From positions 1 through 30,693 of the IMG/VR virus record IMGVR_UViG_3300042544_001048: a stretch of 30,693 bases of DNA. One strand, 5' to 3'. The notes under the pieces are model-generated. The model made no database searches. It had not been told where the DNA came from and worked only from the letters and a program-made list of their open reading frames with translations. Shown one piece after another: positions 658 to 10,656 of this stretch. Made by a program: the position numbers and the translations under genes. The stretch comes from a virus. Every line of letters starts with the position of its first letter. Within the stretch, counting starts at the first letter, position 1.

Positions 658-1437
658 ATGGGTAATTTTAAACATCTTACACAAGAAGAAATCCAGCAAA
701 TGACCTTTGATTGGAGATATCGTGGTTTTACCGCTTTGGATCTTTTAACCGAGGAAGAGTGCGACGAAATCAACGACGAACTTGAGCGTTTACGCCAAGA
801 AAGAATGGGAACAACTACCGATGATGGTAAAGAGTGGGGTGAATGGGATCCATTTGCATATCCACACAAACTATCAGATAAATTGGCGAAATTGTACGCA
901 CATCCTAAATTGATTGAGGCTTGTGAGTTCTTAATGGAGGGTGAGATTGTTGGTATGCAAAGCTGGGCATATTTCAAACCGCCAGGACAATTAGGACGTG
1001 ATCAACACCAAAACGCATTCTACACAGGCTGTAAGCATAATGAAATTATCAACACAGCATTGGCATTGGACAACCACGATGCAGGAAATGGTGCAGTTTG
1101 GAACTACGAAGGATCGCATAGATTACAAACATTACCAATTGAGATCGACGAAGAAAGAGCAAAGACAAACCCATCTTTTTGGAGAAATGAAAGAGGTAAA
1201 CCTTGTATTATGCCAGAAGGACATGACTTCCGTAAAGTGGAAGGTACTTTGAAAAAAGGTCAATGTGTCTTATTACACTCACATTGTGTACATGGTTCAG
1301 AAGCCAACACATCAAATAGAATGAGAAGAAATTTCTTGGGCGGATTCTTGAAGAAAGGTGCATATTATAATCAAGGAACACACATGAAACGTGAACCAAT
1401 TGATATGTACGAATTGAGAGATAAACACTGGAAATAA
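658..1437 (+). CDS. PhyH-like Fe(II)/2-oxoglutarate dioxygenase
   Basis: This 259-residue protein resembles the phytanoyl-CoA dioxygenase (PhyH) family, which uses Fe(II), O2 and 2-oxoglutarate to hydroxylate small or polymer-bound substrates. The metal-binding region is visible as DQHQNAFY (H117) with a distal histidine in HCVHGSEANTSNR (H212), and R221 or R223 would bind 2-oxoglutarate. GNGAVWNYEGSHR (about 143-155) fits the jelly-roll core. The usual HxD carboxylate is Asn here (H117-Q-N119), which is unusual. Length is normal for the family. It stands alone, divergent from the preceding membrane gene and upstream of the tRNA island. The substrate cannot be told; phage relatives are often placed in nucleotide or glycan modification, but that is only a possibility. 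Confidence 0.8.
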   Translation: MGNFKHLTQEEIQQMTFDWRYRGFTALDLLTEEECDEINDELERLRQERMGTTTDDGKEWGEWDPFAYPHKLSDKLAKLYAHPKLIEACEFLMEGEIVGMQSWAYFKPPGQLGRDQHQNAFYTGCKHNEIINTALALDNHDAGNGAVWNYEGSHRLQTLPIEIDEERAKTNPSFWRNERGKPCIMPEGHDFRKVEGTLKKGQCVLLHSHCVHGSEANTSNRMRRNFLGGFLKKGAYYNQGTHMKREPIDMYELRDKHWK

Positions 1438-1456
1438 AAAATAAATTAACCTTTCC

Positions 1457-1487
1457 TTGTTTTAGTATATATTTATATGTATCTTTG
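1457..1487 (+). promoter_or_regulatory. Bacteroidetes-type promoter
   Basis: TTG at 1457-1459, 20 bases, then TATCTTTG at 1480-1487. This matches the TTG / TAnnTTTG form of Bacteroidetes primary-sigma promoters and precedes the 31-aa ORF. A TATTTATA box (1470-1477) also falls between the two elements. Confidence 0.75.
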
Positions 1488-1516
1488 TAAAAGAAAGAAA
1501 AATTAAACAAAATTCA

Positions 1517-1612
1517 ATGAGACAATTTACACATACAACGTCGCCTATGAACCAACAAAATTGGAATGAGCAACCTATGTCTAATAGTCTCGAAGATACT
1601 GATGTTGGTTAA
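1517..1612 (+). CDS. Small hydrophilic peptide (31 aa)
   Basis: A short frame begins MRQFTHTTSPMNQQNWNEQP and ends LEDTDVG. It lies about 30 bases after a good host-type promoter and is followed 23 bases later by an intrinsic terminator, so it has a complete transcription unit of its own. It is polar and rich in Gln, Asn and Thr, with no membrane segment or known domain. Position at the head of the tRNA cluster could also make it a leader peptide. It might instead be a chance frame inside a small RNA; the promoter-ORF-terminator arrangement favours a real gene. Confidence 0.5.
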   Translation: MRQFTHTTSPMNQQNWNEQPMSNSLEDTDVG

Positions 1613-1635
1613 TTTAGTTTAACTTAAAATATTAG

Positions 1636-1674
1636 AAAACCTCGGGACTTAAAAATCTCGGGGTTTTTTGTTTT
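1636..1674 (+). terminator. Intrinsic terminator
   Basis: A 12-bp stem with G-U pairs, AAAACCTCGGGA with TCTCGGGGTTTT, around an 8-base loop, is followed by a T-rich tract. It ends the 31-aa ORF unit just before the first tRNA. Confidence 0.75.
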
Positions 1675-1682
1675 ATACATAT

Positions 1683-1757
1683 AGGGTAATGGACTAATGG
1701 CTAAGTCACTTGCTTTGGGAGCAAGGCATCATGGAGGTTCGAGTCCTCTTTACCCTA
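1683..1757 (+). tRNA. tRNA-Pro(TGG)
   Basis: Acceptor AGGGTAA pairs with TTACCCT, T-loop is TTCGAGT, and the anticodon loop TTTGGGA is closed by CTTGC/GCAAG. The discriminator A is followed by CA, not CCA. First of a five-tRNA run. Confidence 0.92.
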
Positions 1758-1762
1758 CAAAC

Positions 1763-1834
1763 GCTGATTTAGCTCAGAGGCAGAGCACGAAACTGTTAAT
1801 TTCGGGGTCCAGATATCGTAATTCTGAATCAGCG
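1763..1834 (+). tRNA. tRNA-Asn(GTT)
   Basis: Acceptor GCTGATT pairs with AATCAGC, and anticodon loop CTGTTAA is closed by CGAAA/TTTCG. The T-loop (ATCGTAA) is not the usual TTCRANY, so this tRNA may be degenerate or oddly folded. The discriminator G is followed by CA. Confidence 0.85.
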
Positions 1835-1841
1835 CAACATA

Positions 1842-1912
1842 TCCGGTTTGGTGCAATGGAAGCATTTTAGTCTCCAAAACTAACGATTACAGTTCGAGTC
1901 TGTAAACCGGTG
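1842..1912 (+). tRNA. tRNA-Trp(CCA)
   Basis: Anticodon loop CTCCAAA is closed by TTAGT/ACTAA. The T-arm TACAG-TTCGAGT-CTGTA is perfect. Acceptor TCCGGTT/AACCGGT has a T-T first pair. The discriminator G is followed by CA. Confidence 0.88.
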
Positions 1913-1917
1913 CAAAG

Positions 1918-1988
1918 TGTCCTTTAGTATAGCGGTAGTACAGGTGGTTTTGGTCCATCTAGCTGTGGTTCGAGCCCACGAGGGACAA
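1918..1988 (+). tRNA. tRNA-Gln(TTG)
   Basis: Acceptor TGTCCTT pairs with AGGGACA, anticodon loop TTTTGGT is closed by GGTGG/CCATC, and the T-loop is TTCGAGC. The discriminator A is followed by CA. Confidence 0.9.
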
Positions 1989-1996
1989 CACTAACA

Positions 1997-2064
1997 TGCG
2001 GGGAGGAGGGTTCCCGACCAGTCTCATAAGCTGAGTTTTCCGATTTCGATTATCGGCCCCGCAA
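1997..2064 (+). tRNA. tRNA with CAT anticodon (Met, or Ile after lysidine modification)
   Basis: Acceptor TGCGGGG pairs perfectly with CCCCGCA, T-arm CCGAT-TTCGATT-ATCGG is perfect, and anticodon loop CTCATAA is visible. The D-arm (GGAGGAGGGTTCCC) is short and unusual. CAT alone does not separate elongator Met from Ile2. The discriminator A is followed by CA. Confidence 0.85.
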
Positions 2065-2087
2065 CAAAAAAAGATTTAAAAAATATT

Positions 2088-2117
2088 TTGTGATTTCACA
2101 ATTTATTATTATCTTTG
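2088..2117 (+). promoter_or_regulatory. Bacteroidetes-type promoter
   Basis: TTG at 2088-2090, 19 bases, TATCTTTG at 2110-2117: a near-ideal match. It drives the 39-aa gene and probably the tRNA-Thr to tRNA-Glu stretch after it. Confidence 0.8.
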
Positions 2118-2139
2118 TAAAACAATAAAACTTTTAACT

Positions 2140-2259
2140 ATGGCGAGAACGTCAAGAAGAGTTGCAAAAAAAGCGAGTAGCGCTTTGAGAAGTAAAAGAA
2201 CCACAAAGGCTTATAAGTCAGTTGCGGGTTCTGCTTTAAGACAACGTAGGAAGAAGTAG
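2140..2259 (+). CDS. Very basic 39-aa protein
   Basis: The frame starts MARTSRRVAKKASSALRSKR and ends ALRQRRKK. About a third of its residues are Lys or Arg, with Ala and Ser making up much of the rest, so it probably binds nucleic acid. It sits 22 bases behind a strong host-type promoter and 26 bases ahead of tRNA-Thr, inside the tRNA cluster. Composition resembles short histone-tail-like or ribosomal-protein-like peptides, but I cannot place it in a family. Possible roles are RNA chaperone, DNA condensation or ribosome association. The clean promoter and the coherent composition make it very likely real despite its length. Confidence 0.75.
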   Translation: MARTSRRVAKKASSALRSKRTTKAYKSVAGSALRQRRKK

Positions 2260-2285
2260 ATCTTTGAAATATTGGTATAGAATAA

Positions 2286-2358
2286 GCCTCGTTAGCTCAG
2301 TTGGTAGAGCAAGTCATTTGTAATGATTAGGTCTGCGGTTCAAGTCCGTAACGAGGCT
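2286..2358 (+). tRNA. tRNA-Thr(TGT)
   Basis: Acceptor GCCTCGT pairs with ACGAGGC, the D-arm GCTCAGTTGGTAGAGC is canonical, and anticodon loop TTTGTAA is closed by AGTCA/TGATT. The discriminator T is followed by CA. Confidence 0.93.
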
Positions 2359-2730
2359 CAACAGGTGACGACGGTGGTGGAACCCCACTGTCTATAAATC
2401 TCAACACCCGCCTTGATTCGCGGTATTATAGCGGTGAGAGTAGAGTTGCAATAAGTAGGGAGTAATTAACCCAATGGCGAAAGTGTAACCACGGATATAG
2501 CGATATATTTGTTATGATGTGCGAACGGGTACGAAAAACCTGTAATTTATTGAGACTAACTCAACGAGGACTTTGTTAACCAGAGCAAGACTTGGATGGT
2601 GCAATTTAAGGTGAGTTAGGATCAAACGTTAATGTGATAATCACTCCACTAACTCCACATTAGTGGTAAGCATCCGGCAGTAACACCGGACTGGCAATGT
2701 GGTTATTAAGAGGTAAGGAAAAGACTAAAT
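2359..2730 (+). ncRNA. Structured non-coding stretch between tRNA-Thr and tRNA-Leu (novel RNA candidate)
   Basis: These 372 bases hold no credible frame but many strong helices. Examples: GACGGTGG/CCACTGTC (8 bp, near 2370-2395), ACGGGT/ACCTGT around 2530-2550, AACTCA/TGAGTT enclosing 2567-2630, and a long-range CCACATT/AATGTGG pair enclosing a CCGG-CCGG hairpin at about 2655-2703. GC content is clearly higher than in the neighbouring genes, as expected for a folded RNA. It would be co-transcribed with the flanking tRNAs and released by tRNA processing. No RNase P, 6S or SRP signature was seen. Confidence 0.65.
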
Positions 2731-2812
2731 GGCCGAGTGGTGTAATTGGTAACCACGCCAGTCTTAGGAACTGGTGTCGCAAGACGTGAGAGTTCAAGTC
2801 TCTCCTTGGTCA
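2731..2812 (+). tRNA. tRNA-Leu(TAG)
   Basis: A class II tRNA with a long variable arm (TGTCGCAAGACG). Anticodon loop CTTAGGA is closed by CCAGT/ACTGG, and T-arm GAGAG-TTCAAGT-CTCTC is perfect. The acceptor has several G-U pairs. The discriminator A is followed by CA. Confidence 0.92.
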
Positions 2813-2826
2813 CAACGAAAAAATAT

Positions 2827-3393
2827 ATGATAGTAACATTAATTTGTGAACCAAGAACTGGATCAAATAATTTAACTAATTGGTTTAAGACACACGATTC
2901 ATTTGACGTGTTACTTTTACCTTCATATAAAAATTCGCCTGATTTTCAAAATGGATCAACACCTAAAGATTATAAATTTGGTAAAAAGCATTTATTCATT
3001 AAAGAAGAATTTCACCATAAAGATGTAGACTTTAAAGAATTGATTGATATTTCAAATTTTGTCATATTTTTATATCGTGAAAATACTAAAGAACAAATTG
3101 AATCTTGGGTTAATGTAAAAAATAAAAATGATTTTCATAATTTTTGGATTTTTGAAAAAGATGAAAATATTATACCAGACGATGAGATTGAAAAATTTAA
3201 AATATTAAAAAAAGATTTTAAAGAAAAATATTTGGACAATAGTTTTAATTTTAAAATGTCGTATGAAGAATTATATTATGGTGATGGAATTAATAAAATA
3301 GTTTCATTCATTGATATGAACGATTTAAATGTTGCTACATTTCCATTAGGTGAAAGATATCGCATTGAGATCGATAAAAGAAGGATTATTTAG
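2827..3393 (+). CDS. Sulfotransferase-like P-loop protein
   Basis: This 188-residue protein begins MIVTLICEPRTGSNNLTNWF, whose EPRTGSNNL resembles the 5'-phosphosulfate-binding loop (PxRTGSxxL) of sulfotransferases. A second motif, LYRENTKEQIESW (R84, S93), fits the 3'-phosphate-binding helix. Such enzymes move sulfate from PAPS to sugars or other acceptors. The start at 2827 is chosen because an earlier in-frame ATG lies inside tRNA-Leu. The gene fills the gap between tRNA-Leu and tRNA-Met: it starts 14 bases after the former, and the last base of its TAG stop is the first base of the latter. It is much more AT-rich than the flanking RNA genes, consistent with a later insertion. The C-terminal part is not recognised. 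Confidence 0.7.
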   Translation: MIVTLICEPRTGSNNLTNWFKTHDSFDVLLLPSYKNSPDFQNGSTPKDYKFGKKHLFIKEEFHHKDVDFKELIDISNFVIFLYRENTKEQIESWVNVKNKNDFHNFWIFEKDENIIPDDEIEKFKILKKDFKEKYLDNSFNFKMSYEELYYGDGINKIVSFIDMNDLNVATFPLGERYRIEIDKRRII

Positions 3394-3466
3394 GACTTGT
3401 AGCTCAGATGGTTAGAGCAAGACACTCATAATGTCGAGGTCATAGGTTCGAGCCCTATCTGGTCCA
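3393..3466 (+). tRNA. tRNA with CAT anticodon (Met or Ile2)
   Basis: D-arm GCTCAGATGGTTAGAGC and T-arm ATAGG-TTCGAGC-CCTAT are canonical, and the anticodon loop is CTCATAA. Acceptor GGACTTG/CTGGTCC has one T-T mismatch. Its first base is shared with the stop codon of the preceding gene. The discriminator A is followed by CA. With two CAT tRNAs in the cluster, one may read AUA after lysidine modification. Confidence 0.9.
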
Positions 3467-3471
3467 CAAAT

Positions 3472-3542
3472 GGAGAGTTAGTTAATCGGTATAATGTTGC
3501 CTTGTCACGGCAATGTGACGGGTTCGATTCCCGTACTTTCCG
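3472..3542 (+). tRNA. tRNA-Asp(GTC)
   Basis: Acceptor GGAGAGT pairs with ACTTTCC, anticodon loop TTGTCAC is closed by TTGCC/GGCAA, and the T-loop is TTCGATT. The discriminator G is followed by CT, the only tRNA here without CA. Confidence 0.9.
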
Positions 3543-3646
3543 CTCGAAGAGTTTTATAGATTTTCAAACCCATTACGGGTCTCAATCGAAAATCCAATCA
3601 TTGTTTCACTGGTGATTGGGCTAAATGTGAAAGAAAAAATCTATAC
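3543..3646 (+). ncRNA. Small structured spacer RNA between tRNA-Asp and tRNA-Ser
   Basis: About 104 non-coding bases with nested pairing: an outer ATAGATTTT (3556-3564) with AAAATCTAT (3636-3644), and two inner hairpins, ACCC-ATTAC-GGGT (about 3568-3580) and CCAATCA/TGATTGG (about 3594-3619). GATTTTC can alternatively pair with GAAAATC near 3587, which suggests a possible switch. No frame. Function unknown. Confidence 0.5.
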
Positions 3647-3732
3647 GGAGAGATGGCAGAGTTGGTCTATCGCGTCGGTCTTGAAAACCGAAGACTGTTA
3701 CAGGTCCGTGGGTTCGAATCCTACTCTCTCCG
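3647..3732 (+). tRNA. tRNA-Ser(TGA)
   Basis: A class II tRNA with a long variable arm. Acceptor GGAGAGA pairs with TCTCTCC, and anticodon loop CTTGAAA is closed by TCGGT/ACCGA. The discriminator G is followed by CA. Confidence 0.93.
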
Positions 3733-3937
3733 CAGGTCGTCTTTTTTTTGTCCCTCTCGATTAGGGCTGGTTTGTTGAGACGTTAAAGTAACAAACAAAA
3801 GATGTATCGAGCCGTGTTTAAAAGTTTGTACGATAGTCAAAGTAAAGTCCCTTTTGGTGAATACCGTGTTTAGGACTTCCCTCGAAACACAACTATTAAA
3901 GTAAGGACATATGAGTTTACCTGACTCGTCCTGAAAA
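3733..3937 (+). ncRNA. Structured spacer RNA between tRNA-Ser and tRNA-Glu
   Basis: About 205 non-coding bases with several helices: CTCGAT/ATCGAG enclosing GTTTGTT/AACAAAC near 3757-3812, AAGTCC/GGACTT enclosing GGT/ACC near 3845-3881, GTGTTT/AAACAC, and a terminal AGGAC/GTCCT plus GAGT/ACTC hairpin near 3903-3932. No frame. It lies in the tRNA transcript, so processing of the flanking tRNAs would release it. Family unknown. Confidence 0.55.
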
Positions 3938-4009
3938 GCCCCCGTCGACTAAGGGTTAGGTCATCAGGTTTTCATCCTGGAAATTTCGGTTCGAATCCGT
4001 GCGGGGGTA
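3938..4009 (+). tRNA. tRNA-Glu(TTC)
   Basis: Acceptor GCCCCCG pairs with CGGGGGT, anticodon loop TTTTCAT is closed by TCAGG/CCTGG, and the T-loop is TTCGAAT. The discriminator A is followed by CA. Last tRNA of the cluster. Confidence 0.92.
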
Positions 4010-4040
4010 CATTTTTATTTGTGAATTATATTTCTTATAT

Positions 4041-4048
4041 TATTTATT
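4041..4048 (+). promoter_or_regulatory. TATTTATA-like box (TATTTATT)
   Basis: A one-mismatch copy of the phage box, 17 bases before the GIY-YIG start. It may be chance in this AT-rich leader. Confidence 0.35.
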
Positions 4049-4065
4049 AGAATTATAAATCATAA

Positions 4066-4710
4066 ATGGGAAAAACGTACAAATATTATTTTGTTTATAA
4101 AACTACAAATTTAATAAATGAAAAATATTACTATGGAATGCATAGTACCGACAATTTAAATGATGGTTATATTGGAAGTGGAACTAGATTAAAACGTTCA
4201 GTGGAAAAATATGGAAAAGAAAATTTTAAAATTGAAATTTTAGAATTCTTACCTAATAAAGAGAGTTTATTAAAAAAAGAAAAAGAATTAATAAACGAAT
4301 ATGTTTTAAACGATCCTAAATCCATGAATTTACAACCGGGCGGTGGCGGTGGAATATGTAATGAAGAACACGCCTTAAAATTAAAACGTGGTTCATCTGT
4401 TTATCAAAAAGAAAAATGGAAAAATCCAAAATATAGAGAAAATCATCTTAAAATACTAAAAGACAATTTTCCAAAAGTTAAATTGGCACATAATGAAGGT
4501 CGAATAAAGTATGACACTTTTACTGGTAAAAAACATAGCGAAGAATCTAAAATTAAAATGAGTAAAGCTAAAATAGGGCTTTATGACGGCGAGAAAAATT
4601 CTCAATTTGGAACTTGCTGGATAACAAATGGGGTCGAAAATAAAAAAATGAAAAAAGAAGACGCTCTTCCTACAGGCTGGAGATTAGGTAGGATACAAAA
4701 AAACTTTTAA
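4066..4710 (+). CDS. GIY-YIG homing endonuclease with NUMOD-type DNA-binding tail
   Basis: The N-terminal YFVYKTTNLINEKYYYGMHST (residues 8-28) followed by GYIGSG (34-39) is the GIY-YIG nuclease signature of free-standing phage homing endonucleases such as the T4 Seg family. The tail carries GKKHSEESKIKMSKAK (about residues 154-169), typical of a NUMOD3 DNA-binding repeat. At 214 residues it has the usual length. Such enzymes cut a related genome that lacks them and are copied in by repair. It lies between the last tRNA and the promoter of the large RNA, a common kind of site for homing genes. Codons are very AT-rich. No intron borders were seen, so it appears free-standing. Confidence 0.85.
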   Translation: MGKTYKYYFVYKTTNLINEKYYYGMHSTDNLNDGYIGSGTRLKRSVEKYGKENFKIEILEFLPNKESLLKKEKELINEYVLNDPKSMNLQPGGGGGICNEEHALKLKRGSSVYQKEKWKNPKYRENHLKILKDNFPKVKLAHNEGRIKYDTFTGKKHSEESKIKMSKAKIGLYDGEKNSQFGTCWITNGVENKKMKKEDALPTGWRLGRIQKNF

Positions 4711-4717
4711 AAAGATT

Positions 4718-4747
4718 TTGAATATTGAAAAATGTTTCTTATCTTTA
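4718..4747 (+). promoter_or_regulatory. Bacteroidetes-type promoter of the large RNA
   Basis: TTG at 4718-4720, 19 bases, TATCTTTA at 4740-4747. It begins 8 bases after the endonuclease stop and predicts an RNA start near 4753. Confidence 0.75.
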
Positions 4748-4752
4748 TAAAA

Positions 4753-5705
4753 GAAGGGCGAATAACCCGAAAGATAATGTTCTTTGAATAAAAATATTGG
4801 CCGTCTATGGTCAACAAAATAAACCATGAAAGTGGGATAAAGTGAAGAGTCCTTGGTTGGGACAAATTGCGGATTCAGTAATGGATCTCGAGTAGACAAG
4901 TGGAATATCATTTAACCTGAAGTAGTGAGGGTAACTCCGTAGCGAAAGGGTTGGATGACCAAGCAATCCGAGTTGTTTGGTTGAGATGGGAACATCAATA
5001 AGAATAATCCATAGAGTTCATGTAAGAAGTATAGTTATCCGACTATATCATTGCGTAATTCAATACAATGGTGGTCTTAAAACCGTAGCATCGTAAGATG
5101 GAAGGTATGACAAAAAACAGGTGGTGCTGTTAGTGTCCTTGAATAAATCCTACCAAGGGTTTAATCTCGAAGGAAACCAAAAATATGATGACAGGGATGT
5201 CATATCGGGTAGTTTAGTATCAAGTCACTCAAAAGGTGATTTGGCTGGTCACGAACCGCTACCTGGATAATTCGGAAACTAAATTTTTATTTTGGTATAA
5301 AAATCATACATAAAAAGAAAAAGTGTTCGTGCGTGGTGTTCGATAGGTCACTACATAGTTGTGAGGGGTTCACAGCCATAAAGGGTCTCAAGCCCAATAT
5401 GATTTTTAAGAAAGTTCTCTAAACCCGCAAGGTTGAATCAGGTCGGCAGATTTGATGAGTGATGAGTATTAATAGAGTAGGATATCACGAAAGGATTGGT
5501 TAATCTAATTAACCGTGACTGAAACTTACAAATCAAAAGTTTGTGGAAATAAGGGGAAACAAATAATCCTTTTAAAGAGTTTCGTTAAGACATGTATTCT
5601 CAGTGTTTTATTTTCTTTGTTTAGTAAAACAAAGTGGTGGTGAATGTATGTTAAATCATACGGCCTATACAAAATTAAGTCAGAATTATATCTGACTTTT
5701 TTTTT
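4753..5705 (+). ncRNA. Very large ornate RNA (about 950 nt), GOLLD/ROOL-like candidate
   Basis: A stretch of about 950 bases has no believable frame but its own promoter and a strong terminator. It is packed with helices: CCAAGCAA/TTGTTTGG, GATG-GGAA-CATC, TATAGT/ACTATA, CATC-GTAA-GATG (a GNRA tetraloop), ATGACA/TGTCAT, CAAGTCAC/GTGATTTG, ATTTTTAT/ATAAAAAT, GGTTAAT/ATTAACC and others. Size, structure, phage origin and a position beside tRNA genes recall GOLLD RNAs, which are known beside tRNAs in phages, and ROOL RNAs, which are shorter. I cannot confirm a match without a covariance search, so it may be a new class. The end is set by the terminator at 5677-5705; the start is inferred from the promoter. 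Confidence 0.8.
5677..5705 (+). terminator. Intrinsic terminator of the large RNA
   Basis: Perfect 8-bp stem AAGTCAGA/TCTGACTT with a 6-base loop, running into nine T residues. Confidence 0.9.
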
Positions 5706-5715
5706 GCCTTAAATT

Positions 5716-5745
5716 TTGTTTTGTTAAATTATTTAGGTATATTTT
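5716..5745 (+). promoter_or_regulatory. Possible host-type promoter
   Basis: TTG at 5716-5718, 19 bases, TATATTTT at 5738-5745. The last element has one mismatch and lies 4 bases before ATG at 5750, so the message would be almost leaderless. Confidence 0.45.
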
Positions 5746-5749
5746 ATTA

Positions 5750-6100
5750 ATGAAACCTCAAATATCCAATTTACTAATTTCCTTTTTTCTTTTTACAATA
5801 GGATCATTAGGACATTGGTATATTTTATATTGGCAATTCAAAATGGCCAATTGGATTAAAACTCCATATCCTTATTTAATATCAATGGCTTGTGCTTTTA
5901 TTTGGATACTAGCATCTCATTATGGTGTTAAAGCATTTAATGGTGAAATGTGGAGTAATAGGTTTGTGTTTTTTGTAACTGGAATTATTGTGGCATCTTT
6001 TTTATACCCACTTCATTTCGATCAACCAATCACAATGAAAACAGTTGTGCAGTTAATATTGGCGTTGACCATTATTGTTATATCACTTTTTTGGAAATAA
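5750..6100 (+). CDS. Small four-helix membrane protein
   Basis: A 116-residue, very hydrophobic protein with four likely membrane segments at about residues 7-28, 41-60, 70-86 and 96-114. Trp and aromatic residues flank the segments. The size and layout resemble small multidrug-resistance-like or DMT-type proteins, but no family motif is clear. It follows the large RNA's terminator and is 12 bases ahead of another membrane protein, so the two are probably one operon. Function is unknown; holin-like activity cannot be excluded. Confidence 0.75.
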   Translation: MKPQISNLLISFFLFTIGSLGHWYILYWQFKMANWIKTPYPYLISMACAFIWILASHYGVKAFNGEMWSNRFVFFVTGIIVASFLYPLHFDQPITMKTVVQLILALTIIVISLFWK

Positions 6101-6112
6101 AAATTAAATTAT

Positions 6113-6385
6113 ATGTTTGTAGGTTATTATGTTATTTGTGTTATCTATTGTTTCTATCAATTATTCATTAAATTGAATTCTAGATACGATAGTACTCCGA
6201 TGGGTGCGTCCCCGGAATTGGATACCATTATGGTGTTAGTTATGGCATGGGTTCTAGCACCCATTGACATTTCATTAACTTGGATTAGATGGGTTAAAGA
6301 AGCGGAAGAGGCTCGTCGAAGACAAAACCAACTTGAATTGGGTAAAAATTTATTAACTGAAGAAGATAGAACGTCAATATATTAA
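6113..6385 (+). CDS. Small membrane protein with charged tail
   Basis: This 90-residue protein has an N-terminal hydrophobic segment (residues 2-19), a second one at about 39-58, and a charged, probably helical tail (KEAEEARRRQNQLELGK) predicted to lie on the other side of the membrane. It sits between the four-helix protein and a small soluble gene, with gaps of about 12 bases, which suggests shared transcription. Family unknown. Confidence 0.7.
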   Translation: MFVGYYVICVIYCFYQLFIKLNSRYDSTPMGASPELDTIMVLVMAWVLAPIDISLTWIRWVKEAEEARRRQNQLELGKNLLTEEDRTSIY

Positions 6386-6396
6386 AAATTGAAAAT

Positions 6397-6606
6397 ATGA
6401 AATGTATAAAAAACACAAAGACAGGTAGTATCATTAGAATTGATGATAAACAAGCAAATCAAATGGTTGGTTTAACTTGGAAGTTTGTTCCTAAAAGTGA
6501 ATGGAGAGGAACTCCAAGAGTTGCTGAAGAAGTTACCGTTGGTCACGATCAAGGTGGTTCTTATGAAGTTAAAACCGAAAAAAAGTCCAAGAAAAAAGTT
6601 TCCTAA
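6397..6606 (+). CDS. Small soluble protein with Lys-rich end
   Basis: A 69-residue protein: an N-terminal part with KNTKTGSIIRIDDKQANQMVG, then WKFVPKSEWRG, and a Lys-rich tail (EKKSKKKVS). The start resembles small phage proteins in which a short beta region is followed by a Trp-containing motif, but I cannot name the family. It is the last gene before two consecutive hairpins at 6619-6687. Confidence 0.7.
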   Translation: MKCIKNTKTGSIIRIDDKQANQMVGLTWKFVPKSEWRGTPRVAEEVTVGHDQGGSYEVKTEKKSKKKVS

Positions 6607-6618
6607 TTTATTAAAATT

Positions 6619-6687
6619 AGGTGGTGGAGGTATAGTGTGAAAAACCATACGATACCCTATGGGTTAGGGTAAATCCTAGCCCTTTTT
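6619..6687 (+). terminator. Tandem hairpins ending in an intrinsic terminator
   Basis: The first hairpin has GGTAT/ATACC and GTGTG/CATAC around an A-rich loop. The second, GGGTTAGG/CCTAGCCC (6661-6682) with a 6-base loop, runs into five T. The second is a clear terminator for the 5750-6606 genes. The first resembles the 23661-23693 hairpin. Confidence 0.75.
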
Positions 6688-6703
6688 ATGTTTAAAAAAT
6701 TAT

Positions 6704-6711
6704 TATATTTG
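6704..6711 (+). promoter_or_regulatory. Host-type -7 element
   Basis: TATATTTG at 6704-6711, 4 bases before ATG at 6716; no clear TTG upstream. The message would be leaderless or nearly so. Confidence 0.5.
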
Positions 6712-6715
6712 TATT

Positions 6716-7465
6716 ATGAGAATAGTATGTATATCCGATACTCACAGCCTTCATCATCAGATGGAACATCCTTTACCAAATGGTGATGTATTAATTCATG
6801 CGGGTGACATATCAAATAAAGGAGGTCAAAAAGACGTAACCGATTTTATTCATTGGTTCCAAGATTTAGGGGGTTGGGATGCAAAGATATTCATATCTGG
6901 TAATCATGATTATTGTTTTGAAAGGATCAATAAACCCTCTTACAAAGGTACGTATGATTGGTTAACTCCTTTGATGTCTCCCGAGAATTTATCACAATCC
7001 GATGTAACCTATTTGGAAGATAGTTTTATTACAATAGAAACCCCAGAGTTCTCAAGACCAATTAAATTCTACGGTAGTCCTTGGCAACCTTGGTTCTACG
7101 ATTGGGCGTTTAATTTACCAAGACTGGGAAGTGAATTACAAGAAAAGTGGAATATGATTCCCGAAGATACCGATGTATTAATAACACATGGACCACCAAA
7201 CGGATATAGAGATTTGGTTAATAATTGGAGACAACCCAATACAAATGTAGGTTGTGAAATGTTAACAAATCGAATTGGTCAGATAAATCCATTGGTAAAT
7301 GTATTTGGACATATCCATGAAGGTTATGGTTTTGAATATGGTAAAAAGACATTATTTGTAAACGCATCAATATGTACCCCGGAATATCACCCAACAAATA
7401 AACCAATCGTTATTGATCTACTTGAAATTAACGGTAAAATAAAAGCATTATATGTCGAAGAATAA
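6716..7465 (+). CDS. Calcineurin-like metallophosphoesterase
   Basis: All metal-binding blocks of the family are present in order: ISDTH (6-10), GD at 30-31 (HAGDIS), GNHD (62-65), THGPP (157-161) and FGHIHEG (197-203). It should hydrolyse phosphoesters at a two-metal centre; the closest look is to small bacterial phosphodiesterases or phosphatases that carry THGPP and GHxH. Length (249 residues) is typical. Its last 14 bases overlap the next gene, so the two are likely translated together. The substrate cannot be told: cyclic nucleotides, phosphorylated protein or RNA ends are options. Confidence 0.9.
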   Translation: MRIVCISDTHSLHHQMEHPLPNGDVLIHAGDISNKGGQKDVTDFIHWFQDLGGWDAKIFISGNHDYCFERINKPSYKGTYDWLTPLMSPENLSQSDVTYLEDSFITIETPEFSRPIKFYGSPWQPWFYDWAFNLPRLGSELQEKWNMIPEDTDVLITHGPPNGYRDLVNNWRQPNTNVGCEMLTNRIGQINPLVNVFGHIHEGYGFEYGKKTLFVNASICTPEYHPTNKPIVIDLLEINGKIKALYVEE

Positions 7466-8144
7466 AGAATCTGTAAGTGTGGTAATTTCCACTAGAAAAA
7501 TTGATGATGAGTATTTAAAACATGTTGAGAAGATGTTCTCTCAACCTGATACCGAAATATTAGTATATGAAAATGATGGTGTATCATCATTAACCGAAAT
7601 TTATAATATTGGCTTAAAAGAATCCAAAAATGATATAGTTGTGTTTATGCATGATGATCTTATTTTAGAGACGCCAAATATGACACCAAAGATTGTTAAA
7701 CTATTTGAAAAACATAACGATTATGGTATTATTGGTATTGCGGGAACGGACAATTTAACAAGTGGAATGTGGTGGCAAAATCGTGAAAATATGTTTGGGG
7801 TTGTTGGACATATCCATGAAGGTAAAAGACACGTTAATCACTATTCTAAGGGGGTTTTTAACGATGTTCTTAAAGATGTTGTAGTTGTGGATGGTTTATG
7901 GTTTGCAATTCGCAAATCGCAAATTAAGAAGGAATTTAACGAACAATTTAGTGGGTTTCATTTCTATGATATTACGTTCTGCGTTGAGAATTACTTGGAA
8001 GGTGTAAAGGTTGGTTTAACCACAAAATTTGGGGTTACACACAAGTCGATAGGGGCCACAAATAAACAATGGGAAAAGAATAGATTGTTTTTTGAGGCTT
8101 TGTATGAAAAGAAACTTCCATTAATCATACCACATACACTTTAG
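7452..8144 (+). CDS. GT-A fold (GT2-like) glycosyltransferase
   Basis: A 230-residue protein starting with VSVVISTRKID, then YENDGVSSLTEIYNIGLKESKNDIVVFMHDDL. The HDD at 67-69 stands where GT2 enzymes have their metal-binding DxD, and the preceding Asn/Gly-rich turn and helix fit a GT-A nucleotide-sugar site. FSGFHFYDITFCVENYLEGVKVGL fits the acceptor side. It overlaps the metallophosphoesterase by 14 bases. It is compact compared with full-length GT2 enzymes and lacks a membrane anchor, so it likely works on a soluble or virion substrate. Donor and acceptor are unknown. Confidence 0.8.
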   Translation: MSKNKESVSVVISTRKIDDEYLKHVEKMFSQPDTEILVYENDGVSSLTEIYNIGLKESKNDIVVFMHDDLILETPNMTPKIVKLFEKHNDYGIIGIAGTDNLTSGMWWQNRENMFGVVGHIHEGKRHVNHYSKGVFNDVLKDVVVVDGLWFAIRKSQIKKEFNEQFSGFHFYDITFCVENYLEGVKVGLTTKFGVTHKSIGATNKQWEKNRLFFEALYEKKLPLIIPHTL

Positions 8145-8164
8145 AAATTTAGCAATTTTCCATA

Positions 8165-8172
8165 TATTTATA
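8165..8172 (+). promoter_or_regulatory. TATTTATA box
   Basis: Exact TATTTATA, 13 bases before ATG at 8186 and followed by TAAAAAC. Confidence 0.6.
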
Positions 8173-8185
8173 TAAAAACAAATTT

Positions 8186-8407
8186 ATGATGTACGTTATT
8201 TTAATTTTAGCAGTTATTGCAGGTGTGGCTTTTTTATTAATGAAGTCAGGTAAGATCGAAGACAAGAATGGTAACAACATTCCTGATAAATTGGAACCTA
8301 TGGTTGAGGAAGTTAAAGAGGTTGTTAAAAAAGTAAAAAAGGCTGTTGAGGAAACAAAACCAGCTAAAAAAACATCAGCAAAGAAATCAGCTAAAAAAGC
8401 TAAATAA
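8186..8407 (+). CDS. Single-membrane-segment protein with Lys/Ala-rich tail
   Basis: A 73-residue protein with an N-terminal membrane helix (YVILILAVIAGVAFLLM, residues 3-19), then KIEDKNGNNIPDKLE, a sequence with the D-x-N-x-D-x-x-x-D style of a short calcium-binding or dockerin-like loop, and a long Lys/Ala/Val helix ending in repeated AKKSAKKAK. ATG codons at 8186 and 8189 are both possible. The basic tail suggests contact with nucleic acid or acidic surfaces at the membrane. The family is not recognised, though this arrangement (membrane helix, DKNGNNIPDKLE, basic tail) is very distinct. Confidence 0.75.
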   Translation: MMYVILILAVIAGVAFLLMKSGKIEDKNGNNIPDKLEPMVEEVKEVVKKVKKAVEETKPAKKTSAKKSAKKAK

Positions 8408-8432
8408 TTAGTTTTAAATATATTAAATGATT

Positions 8433-8466
8433 AAGGGTTAAAATTAGTTTTTTAACCCTTTTTTAT
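8433..8466 (+). terminator. Intrinsic terminator
   Basis: AAGGGTTAAAA pairs with TTTTAACCCTT around a short loop, followed by T-rich sequence. It separates the 73-aa gene from tmRNA. Confidence 0.8.
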
Positions 8467-8467
8467 C

Positions 8468-8475
8468 TATATTTG
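8468..8475 (+). promoter_or_regulatory. Host-type -7 element of tmRNA
   Basis: TATATTTG ends 10 bases before the first tmRNA base. No good TTG is seen at the usual distance. Confidence 0.5.
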
Positions 8476-8485
8476 TTTATCATAT

Positions 8486-8891
8486 GGGGATGCTTTGGAT
8501 TTGACTGGCGTTTATATGGTAAATGGGCACGTAGTCAGAATTCATCTATGACTTAAATCCACGGTGAAGAAAATCAAACGGCAACGTTTACAACAACATG
8601 GAAATTGCAGGTATCCTTGCAACTTCTAAAGTAGCAGCCTAACCAAGTTAGACTCCTATCTCGGGTCGATGTACATATAACCTAGGAACAGAAGTACTTA
8701 AGGTGTGATACCGCCATAGAGTGTCAAAGGTCTCGTTCAGAGTGCTACCTTAAAGTGAACTCGACACAGTTATTGGTTACAATGTCAAAATAGAAACCAT
8801 TTATTTGTCTGTTGTGAATAACAGAATAAACGTGTAGTCCATTTATGGTATGGCGATTAGGACACGGGTTCGACTCCCGTCATCTCCACCA
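8486..8891 (+). ncRNA. ssrA: tmRNA (transfer-messenger RNA)
   Basis: GGGGATG at the 5' end pairs with CATCTCC at the 3' end, the 3' part has T-arm ACGGG-TTCGACT-CCCGT, and the RNA ends with an encoded ACCA. GGATTTGACTGGCG near the start and the 406-nt length are typical. It rescues stalled ribosomes and tags the unfinished protein. The tag frame ends at TAA (8640-8642); if translation resumes at GGC (8580) the tag is 20 residues, GNVYNNMEIA followed by GILATSKVAA. That is about twice the usual length and ends VAA rather than LAA. The resume codon is inferred from context (AAATCAAAC before it). Confidence 0.93.
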
Positions 8892-8895
8892 AAAC

Positions 8896-8924
8896 AAAAC
8901 CCATCTAAACGATGGGTTTTTTAT
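8896..8924. terminator. Bidirectional terminator shared by tmRNA and the SGNH gene
   Basis: AAAACCCATC/GATGGGTTTT with a 5-base loop and flanking A and T runs. It follows tmRNA and overlaps the 3' end of the convergent SGNH gene. Confidence 0.8.
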
Positions 8925-10656
8925 TTTCTAATTCTCTTATTAAATCTTTGAATAACTCAATATGACCAAATCTACCGATATGTAAATCATCAACTGCACC
9001 ATTGGTTTCCTCCAATATACTTTGATATTTCTTATATGGAATGAAATGCTTATAGCAATCTTTTTTGAAATTTCTAGATTGATAATGTTTTAAATTGAAA
9101 TTATGATAAATAAATTGTCTCGTTTCTTCGGAACATAGTTCTATATTAATAAAAATAATTCTTTTATCGTTTTCCGCAAGATTCTTCATTTCATTTAAAT
9201 TGATGTCTTTAGTTAGATCCACTAAATGATCACAATTTTTTCTCATCAATTCTTGCAATTCTGGTTCAGATTCTGACCAATTATTAAAAATATACGAATG
9301 TTTTAAATCGATACTTTCTTGTGACCATATTCTTGTCGGCAATATAAGGTCTGGTTTAACCCAAGTCCAATGCAATACTTTGTTCTTTTTTAATGTGTGA
9401 TTTATTATTTTAATAAACCCTTCAATCTCTGACCACCAAACCGAATGTGTTTCCTTATTATAACCTATTTGTTCTGTCGATACTTTACTAACATCATCAT
9501 TCTGTTTCGGATGCGGAGTAAAAGGTATAATATCAACAAAGTTATTAACGTTATCAGCAACTCTAAATCTACTTATAGACGTCCAACCAAATATTACAAT
9601 ATCCTTTGGTTTTATTTTTACGTGGTTATTAATAAATGATTCGAATATTGTATAATTTGAACAGCCGCCCATACCATAATTTACCACCTCAATATTGTAA
9701 TGTTCGGCAATTAAATCAGGATAGTTTTTTGGAGTCTCACCTAAATGGTTAATGTATTGTTTTGCCCAGGATAAATCTGATTTATAATGATTTGCAAATG
9801 TTTGAGTATGTGAATCTCCGAACACATAAAGCGTTGGCCTCAATTTACCTTCTAACATTTTGATAACTTTTTCAGCAAAGTTTTTATTACCAAAATATCC
9901 TGGATGCATATCTCCGCTTGCTCCATTCAATTCGTCACATATTCTCATATTTTGAAATGTACAAAACTGATTAACACAATTAAATCCACCAAATTTTAAG
10001 TTCCTTCTTTTATCGTAATCAACGTAAAAATCTTTAAATGGCATTTGTAATGAATCATTATCAAACCAATAAAAATACTCTATATTGTTTTCTTCCAAAA
10101 AACTAAATAAACCAACAAGTTCTCCTACAAATTTATTAAAGTATATCATTGGGTTGTGGTACTTACTCAAGTAATCCTTTACCTCTTCAGTTATTTGTCC
10201 TTTAAAATAATCGTGGTTATATTTTATACCGTCCTTGGTTAAAACGTCTTGCATTTGTATTGATGAAATCGACCCAATATTTCTATCATCATCATACCTT
10301 ACATTTGTTATAACATAATCATTTACCTTTTCCACATATAAATCTACCCTATGTGGAGGATCAGTTATTTCAAATAAAAATAACGTTTTTCTAGCACTAT
10401 CAATACCAACTTCTTGAATATATTCATATGTTCTTCTTACCAATCTTGGTGCTCCTGAACCTGAAAATGCGTCATGCACCAAATTGACACCAAAGTGATC
10501 TGCAATGTATTTTGGATATGTGACATTCTTTTCGTTGTCCCATTCAACTCCATGTTGTTTTTTGTATTCTTGTTTAACCCCATAATCGGATAAACCGCCT
10601 CCTGCTGTTAATGAAGAACCATTGGCGTATATTGTATCAAAATTTATAAATTTCAT
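8905..10656 (-). CDS. Tandem SGNH/GDSL hydrolase-like protein
   Basis: This 583-residue protein contains two SGNH-type halves. Half 1 (about 1-270) has YANGSSLTAGG with Ser at 14 or 15 and GDMHPG with D249/H251. Half 2 (about 275-583) has the classic block FGDSHTQTF (S282), GMGGCSNYT (328-336), VIFGW and a C-terminal DDLHIGRFGH (D556/D557, H559). The start at 10656 is chosen over 10701 because the upstream 15 codons are an AT-rich leader and a TATTTATA box lies at 10668-10675. SGNH hydrolases remove acyl groups from esters, often on polysaccharides, so this could trim host capsule or envelope glycans, or be part of the virion. Substrate unknown. Confidence 0.8.
   Translation of the reverse strand: MKFINFDTIYANGSSLTAGGGLSDYGVKQEYKKQHGVEWDNEKNVTYPKYIADHFGVNLVHDAFSGSGAPRLVRRTYEYIQEVGIDSARKTLFLFEITDPPHRVDLYVEKVNDYVITNVRYDDDRNIGSISSIQMQDVLTKDGIKYNHDYFKGQITEEVKDYLSKYHNPMIYFNKFVGELVGLFSFLEENNIEYFYWFDNDSLQMPFKDFYVDYDKRRNLKFGGFNCVNQFCTFQNMRICDELNGASGDMHPGYFGNKNFAEKVIKMLEGKLRPTLYVFGDSHTQTFANHYKSDLSWAKQYINHLGETPKNYPDLIAEHYNIEVVNYGMGGCSNYTIFESFINNHVKIKPKDIVIFGWTSISRFRVADNVNNFVDIIPFTPHPKQNDDVSKVSTEQIGYNKETHSVWWSEIEGFIKIINHTLKKNKVLHWTWVKPDLILPTRIWSQESIDLKHSYIFNNWSESEPELQELMRKNCDHLVDLTKDINLNEMKNLAENDKRIIFINIELCSEETRQFIYHNFNLKHYQSRNFKKDCYKHFIPYKKYQSILEETNGAVDDLHIGRFGHIELFKDLIRELENKKPIV

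Follow-up and report, generated by a model that had tools for sequence, protein, structure and literature searches.

A GOLLD RNA gene with a lineage-specific 5' domain in a phage tRNA island

Which class of RNA, if any known one, is encoded by a stretch of some 950 nt of viral DNA that contains no reading frame? The locus occupies positions 4753–5705 of the window (the whole stretch of DNA that was analysed, 30,693 nt, from IMG/VR record IMGVR_UViG_3300042544_001048), where a first-pass annotation had described a large RNA with its own promoter and terminator, related to GOLLD or ROOL or possibly representing a new class. Our analysis leaves hardly any doubt that this RNA belongs to GOLLD, and the window copy is a well-conserved new member of an already known family. 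It is also almost certainly functional and under selection. The fuller reading, of a complete and functional phage GOLLD RNA gene with its own promoter and terminator, set in a tRNA and tmRNA island, is very probable. The transcription unit and its domains are as follows.

4718–4747, + strand: promoter of the Bacteroidota type, TTG-N19-TATCTTTA (sequence, and recurrence in homologues)
4753–5705, + strand: predicted non-coding transcript (limits from promoter and terminator; longest frame 68 codons)
4797–5204, + strand: GOLLD 5' domain, about 20 helix segments, outside the Rfam model (alignment A1, 18 copies)
4817–4844, + strand: near-invariant 5' motif, AAATAAAC-NNN-GAAA-NNN-GN-ATAAAGTG (viral matches)
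5205–5606, + strand: conserved GOLLD 3' domain, RF02032 (301.5 bits, full length)
5277–5316, + strand: variable A/U-rich linker (length variation among homologues)
5607–5676, + strand: lineage-specific 3' tail of hairpin, TGGTGG, hairpin and GGCC (TGGTGG in 12 of 78 copies)
5677–5705, + strand: intrinsic terminator, AAGTCAGA-ATTATA-TCTGACTT-T (sequence)

The limits proposed for the RNA proved sound, with a promoter before it and a terminator at its end, and its start is probably near 4753, as judged from the promoter position. No reading frame was found in 4753–5705, where each frame of both strands carries 16–25 stops and the longest open stretch spans 68 codons, as the first-pass annotation had held. 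The strong structure it had described was likewise borne out: the minimum free energy is −250.9 kcal/mol, whereas dinucleotide shuffles give −214.9 ± 9.6 (z −3.8), and in the same shuffle test the 5' half reached z −3.4 and coding controls −1.1 to +1.2. The claimed TTG-N19 promoter is present. Among 76 non-redundant homologues, 29 have a TTG-N17-20-TAnnTTT(G/A) pattern no more than 150 nt before the 5' motif, versus 5% of control windows. Equally, the terminator is perfect as described, with an 8-bp hairpin at 5677–5698 directly followed by a T tract (a U tract in the RNA); among 75 homologues, 50 have a hairpin with a T run no farther than 160 nt from the GOLLD 3' end, versus 6.5% of controls. 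The carriers of this GOLLD group are uncultured, often very large phages. We take this type of promoter pattern to be that of Bacteroidota and, from the pattern alone, these phages probably infect Bacteroidota. A tblastn search with one window protein against phage records gave no match.

The covariance-model search that had been proposed as a check separated the two suggested relatives. Positions 5205–5606 matched Rfam GOLLD (RF02032, gathering score 150) at 301.5 bits over model positions 1–416 of 416; the ROOL model gave no match at E values up to 1 in positions 1400–9000 of the window, so that kinship with GOLLD stood and kinship with ROOL fell away. No other Rfam family matched the rest of 4753–5705, even at E values up to 1. 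ROOL is alike in kind, as a large RNA of phages and mobile elements that lies near tRNAs and forms a cage (PMC12286853), but is unrelated in sequence and structure. The features by which GOLLD membership is judged are found together at this locus: a full-length 3' domain score, a structured 5' domain, a linker (5276–5316, 32–59 nt among homologues, without a tRNA inside) and a phage location near tRNAs. As the first-pass annotation had it, the setting is rich in tRNAs, with ten of them at 1683–4010, before the gene, and a tmRNA at 8486–8891, after it. Between tRNA-Glu and the GOLLD promoter lies a homing endonuclease gene (4066–4710, + strand; phrog_314, E 9e-40), presumably of the GIY-YIG type from our reading of its start, and related endonuclease genes occur in about 13 other loci.

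A strict 3'-domain pattern matched two viral contigs and none of the genome contigs. Pattern and similarity searches yielded the first 27 copies, two of them in the 634-kb and 642-kb genomes of phages LR745206 and LR756502; homologous copies also lie on viral contigs of up to 335 kb. The final set comprises 78 full-length, non-redundant copies whose 5' domains can be aligned, and is large enough for covariation tests of the bridges, the contacts between molecules of the GOLLD cage. Mutual information with APC correction over these copies recovered helices and several tertiary contacts, with the reservation that kinship among the sequences (effective number about 27) inflates covariation.

Few natural RNAs are known to assemble into cages without protein, and GOLLD is among them; hollow cages have been demonstrated for one member, and the published GOLLD cage is a homo-14-mer with D7 symmetry. 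The contacts considered here are listed below.

4967–4971, + strand: loop of the 5'-domain hairpin 4959–4980, partner of 5272–5276 (covariation)
5272–5276, + strand: 5' end of junction J13/15, partner of 4967–4971 (covariation)
5316–5319, + strand: J13/15 side of the L20 kissing contact, bridge B7 (covariation)
5387–5390, + strand: loop L20, partner of 5316–5319 (covariation)
5426–5430, + strand: loop L21a, CGCAA, bridge B8, with a self-pairing palindromic dinucleotide (77 of 78 homologues aligned)

In the cryo-EM structure of the GOLLD 14-mer, L20 with J13/15 and L21a are the intermolecular bridges B7 and B8 (PMC12286853); both dodecameric and 14-mer cages are mentioned in a review (PMC12641628). 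The names L20, J13/15 and L21a follow our own mapping onto the window, through the residue numbers and helix order in PMC12286853. At B7, the pair 5318 × 5388 covaries with a z of 21.4 (CG 35, GC 33, AT 10), and complementarity is kept in all the variants GG/CC, GC/GC, GA/UC and UC/GA. At least two Watson-Crick pairs form between 5316–5319 and 5387–5390 in 11 of 11 distinct segment pairs, the B7 and B8 bridge loops being short, of 2–3 bp. Loop L21a is CGCAA in 60 copies, GUCGA in a further 10 and some other sequence in a few, and a self-complementary dinucleotide (GC, CG or AU) is found in 77 of 77 aligned loops. Because both contacts used by the published cage keep their complementarity, the window RNA is likely to assemble into a cage like the published 14-mer. 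That it works instead as a monomer, or as a scaffold of RNA and protein, is improbable: 5' domains do differ among GOLLD lineages, and the case for a cage in the window lineage is read from sequence, but the intermolecular bridge sites stay complementary through GC, CG and AU changes. Within the favoured cage reading, the published symmetry may not be valid for the 5' domain of the window copy.

Another contact joins distant parts of the molecule. Positions 4967–4971 and 5272–5276 covary as four to five Watson-Crick pairs (GUGG/CCAC, CCGA/UCGG, GUAG/CUAC, ACGG/CCGU and ACCG/CGGU), with z values of 15.3, 9.3 and 9.1 at 4970 × 5273, 4969 × 5274 and 4968 × 5275 in the 78 copies. Four or more such pairs form in 28 of 31 distinct segment pairs, a count that averages 9.9 over 500 shuffles and never exceeds 17 there. 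As judged from this covariation, the contact is one that ties the 5' and 3' domains together; it may already be known from the published GOLLD structure. An equivalent in the GOLLD of Acinetobacter phage Herod was not evident by eye. Two pseudoknot-like pairings, 5249–5256 × 5325–5332 and 5347–5352 × 5514–5519, have support equal to that of the interdomain contact.

What follows the GOLLD 3' end differs among relatives: a terminator, a tRNA within about 11–32 nt or a tRNA-like minihelix. These varied neighbours suggest that the 3' end may arise by two routes, either at a terminator or through tRNA processing. The window lineage has the TGGTGG tail and a terminator, the tail motif being found in 12 of 78 copies (the window and 11 homologues). 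A second recurrent short tail motif, ATGGAGC..ACCGG, lies between the GOLLD 3' end and the terminator in eight homologues. We discarded the idea of a tRNA relic in the 3' tail of the window copy, where no tRNA match was obtained at E values up to 1. The minihelix, seen right after the GOLLD 3' end in loci L014, L087, L116, L132 and L167, consists of an acceptor and a T arm (GGTTCGATTCC), lacks an anticodon arm and occupies the position taken by a complete tRNA in other phages; its acceptor strands vary between loci yet are complementary by eye, and it is perhaps a processing signal. In phage DSS3_MAL1 (L091), a tRNA-Arg lies within the GOLLD match (2570–3525), in the linker region, and a tmRNA begins 58–84 nt past the GOLLD 3' end.

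The same surroundings bear on whether 4753–5705 could be a long structured leader, regulating in cis the 116-aa ORF at 5750–6100. This ORF does begin only 45 nt past the terminator, on the same strand, but a strong terminator stands between the two and the downstream neighbours vary among homologues (terminators, tRNAs and tRNA-like minihelices), making a leader very unlikely. The terminator before the ORF and the intact structure led us to reject the leader reading together with a pseudogene reading.

The part matched by Rfam corresponds to the 3' region that the literature describes as universally conserved; GOLLD RNAs have in addition a 5' region that is conserved less strongly (PMC12286853). 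The first-pass annotation had also pointed to compensatory changes among homologues as a check, and these were found: in alignment A1, of 18 copies of the 5' domain, RNAalifold gave a structure of 105 pairs, of which 68 have changed on both sides, and 97.7% of the cells hold standard pairs. Because A1 also served to derive this structure, the figures are biased in its favour; slid versions nevertheless reach no more than about 40%, and its measures were equalled by none of 500 shuffles and by no slid version. That the locus might be a decayed GOLLD relic without function, as its position beside a homing endonuclease gene and the tendency of phage islands to gather debris could suggest, is highly improbable against this proportion of standard pairs, the near-invariant loops, the intact structural elements and the presence of both promoter and terminator.

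The 5' motif matched at least 120 viral stretches, and 48 of 50 tested contigs carrying it have a GOLLD core above the cut-off. Three further matches, among 84,980 bacterial and archaeal genomes, lack GOLLD and score 13–16 bits with a covariance model of the 5' domain (4797–4899, built from 20 copies), and we set them aside as chance. In phage Herod, the same model matches the 5' half of GOLLD at 48.7 bits (E 3.7e-12), 244 nt before the Herod GOLLD core; it gave no match in the GOLLD phages of Mycobacterium and Streptococcus or in DSS3_MAL1 (Ruegeria). Given this co-occurrence with GOLLD cores, the Herod match and the lack of matches in the other phages, the 5' half is, on comparative grounds, a lineage-specific GOLLD 5' domain and not a new RNA; the Rfam GOLLD model omits a conserved 5' half. 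A new giant-RNA class unrelated to GOLLD and ROOL, which the absence of a Rfam match to the 5' half and of 5'-model matches in the GOLLDs of phages of Mycobacterium, Streptococcus and Ruegeria might favour, has a negligible chance, being refuted already by the full-length 301.5-bit GOLLD in the 3' half and further by the Herod 5' match and by the 48 of 50 contigs in which the 5' half accompanies a GOLLD core; with both halves assigned to GOLLD, and the 5' half shared with that of an isolated phage, the suggestion of a new class was abandoned.

The window GOLLD shares with those of the Lactobacillus brevis prophage and env-38 the full-length 3' domain, a length above 800 nt, the phage location near tRNAs, a variable linker and the bridge sites B7 and B8. 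It differs from them in its 5' domain outside the Rfam model, its probable Bacteroidota promoter, its own terminator and TGGTGG tail, and a linker without a tRNA. Herod GOLLD (MW316732, L088) has in common with it the core (225.2 bits), the 5' subdomain (48.7 bits) and the tRNA island, whereas a tRNA begins 10 nt past its 3' end, in place of tail and terminator. In the huge phages LR745206 and LR756502, both domains are present and core identity to the window copy is 56–58%, but a tRNA-like gene follows directly.

These elements can be arranged into a possible course of events. The gene would be transcribed during infection from a host-type promoter, and the RNA, of about 900 nt, would fold into a lineage-specific 5' domain and a universal 3' domain, both shown by covariation, with the variable A/U-rich linker between them. 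Given the kept bridges B7 and B8, it would then self-assemble into a closed homo-oligomeric cage like the published 14-mer. The likeliest use of such a cage, put forward tentatively, would be to bind or hold ribosomes, phage tRNAs or other parts of the translation machinery late in infection. GOLLD expression goes up during lysis, and ribosomes bind GOLLD in pull-downs (PMC12286853). A translation-related role is a first guess, made because tRNAs and a tmRNA are constantly nearby, and we consider it possible but tentative for the window copy. In the L. brevis prophage, GOLLD is dispensable for phage production (PMC7567579), and the role may therefore be conditional. It is doubtful that the cage with its covarying 5'-3' lock, the RNA of about 185 nt described below, the tRNAs and the tmRNA form a coordinated set that reshapes host translation, with the cage as scaffold. 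The comparative set helps in choosing isolates, such as phage Herod, for knock-out work.

The tRNA island contains other conserved elements. Between tRNA-Thr and tRNA-Leu lies a conserved structured RNA of about 185 nt (2360–2543, + strand), which matched no Rfam family. Its 5'-end pattern matched 33 viral stretches, one of which (L266) aligned poorly and is probably a chance match; across its 19 distinct copies, standard pairs fill 98.7% of the pair cells and 14 of 37 pairs are doubly changed, values reached by none of 500 shuffles. Several copies stand directly behind a promoter of the Bacteroidota type and others behind a tRNA. This RNA is a possible new phage RNA class. A small, very basic ORF (MARTSRRVAKKASSALRSKRTTKAYKSVAGSALRQRRKK) lies in the island at 2140–2259 (+ strand), and 1993–2065 (+ strand) is tRNA-like by eye, with a CAT anticodon, and was called by neither ARAGORN nor Rfam. 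After the RNA of about 185 nt comes a second conserved stretch (2631–2728, + strand), CCGGCAGTAACACCGG ... AAGACTAA, whose counterparts in L011, L036 and L188 have a tRNA-like gene just before them.
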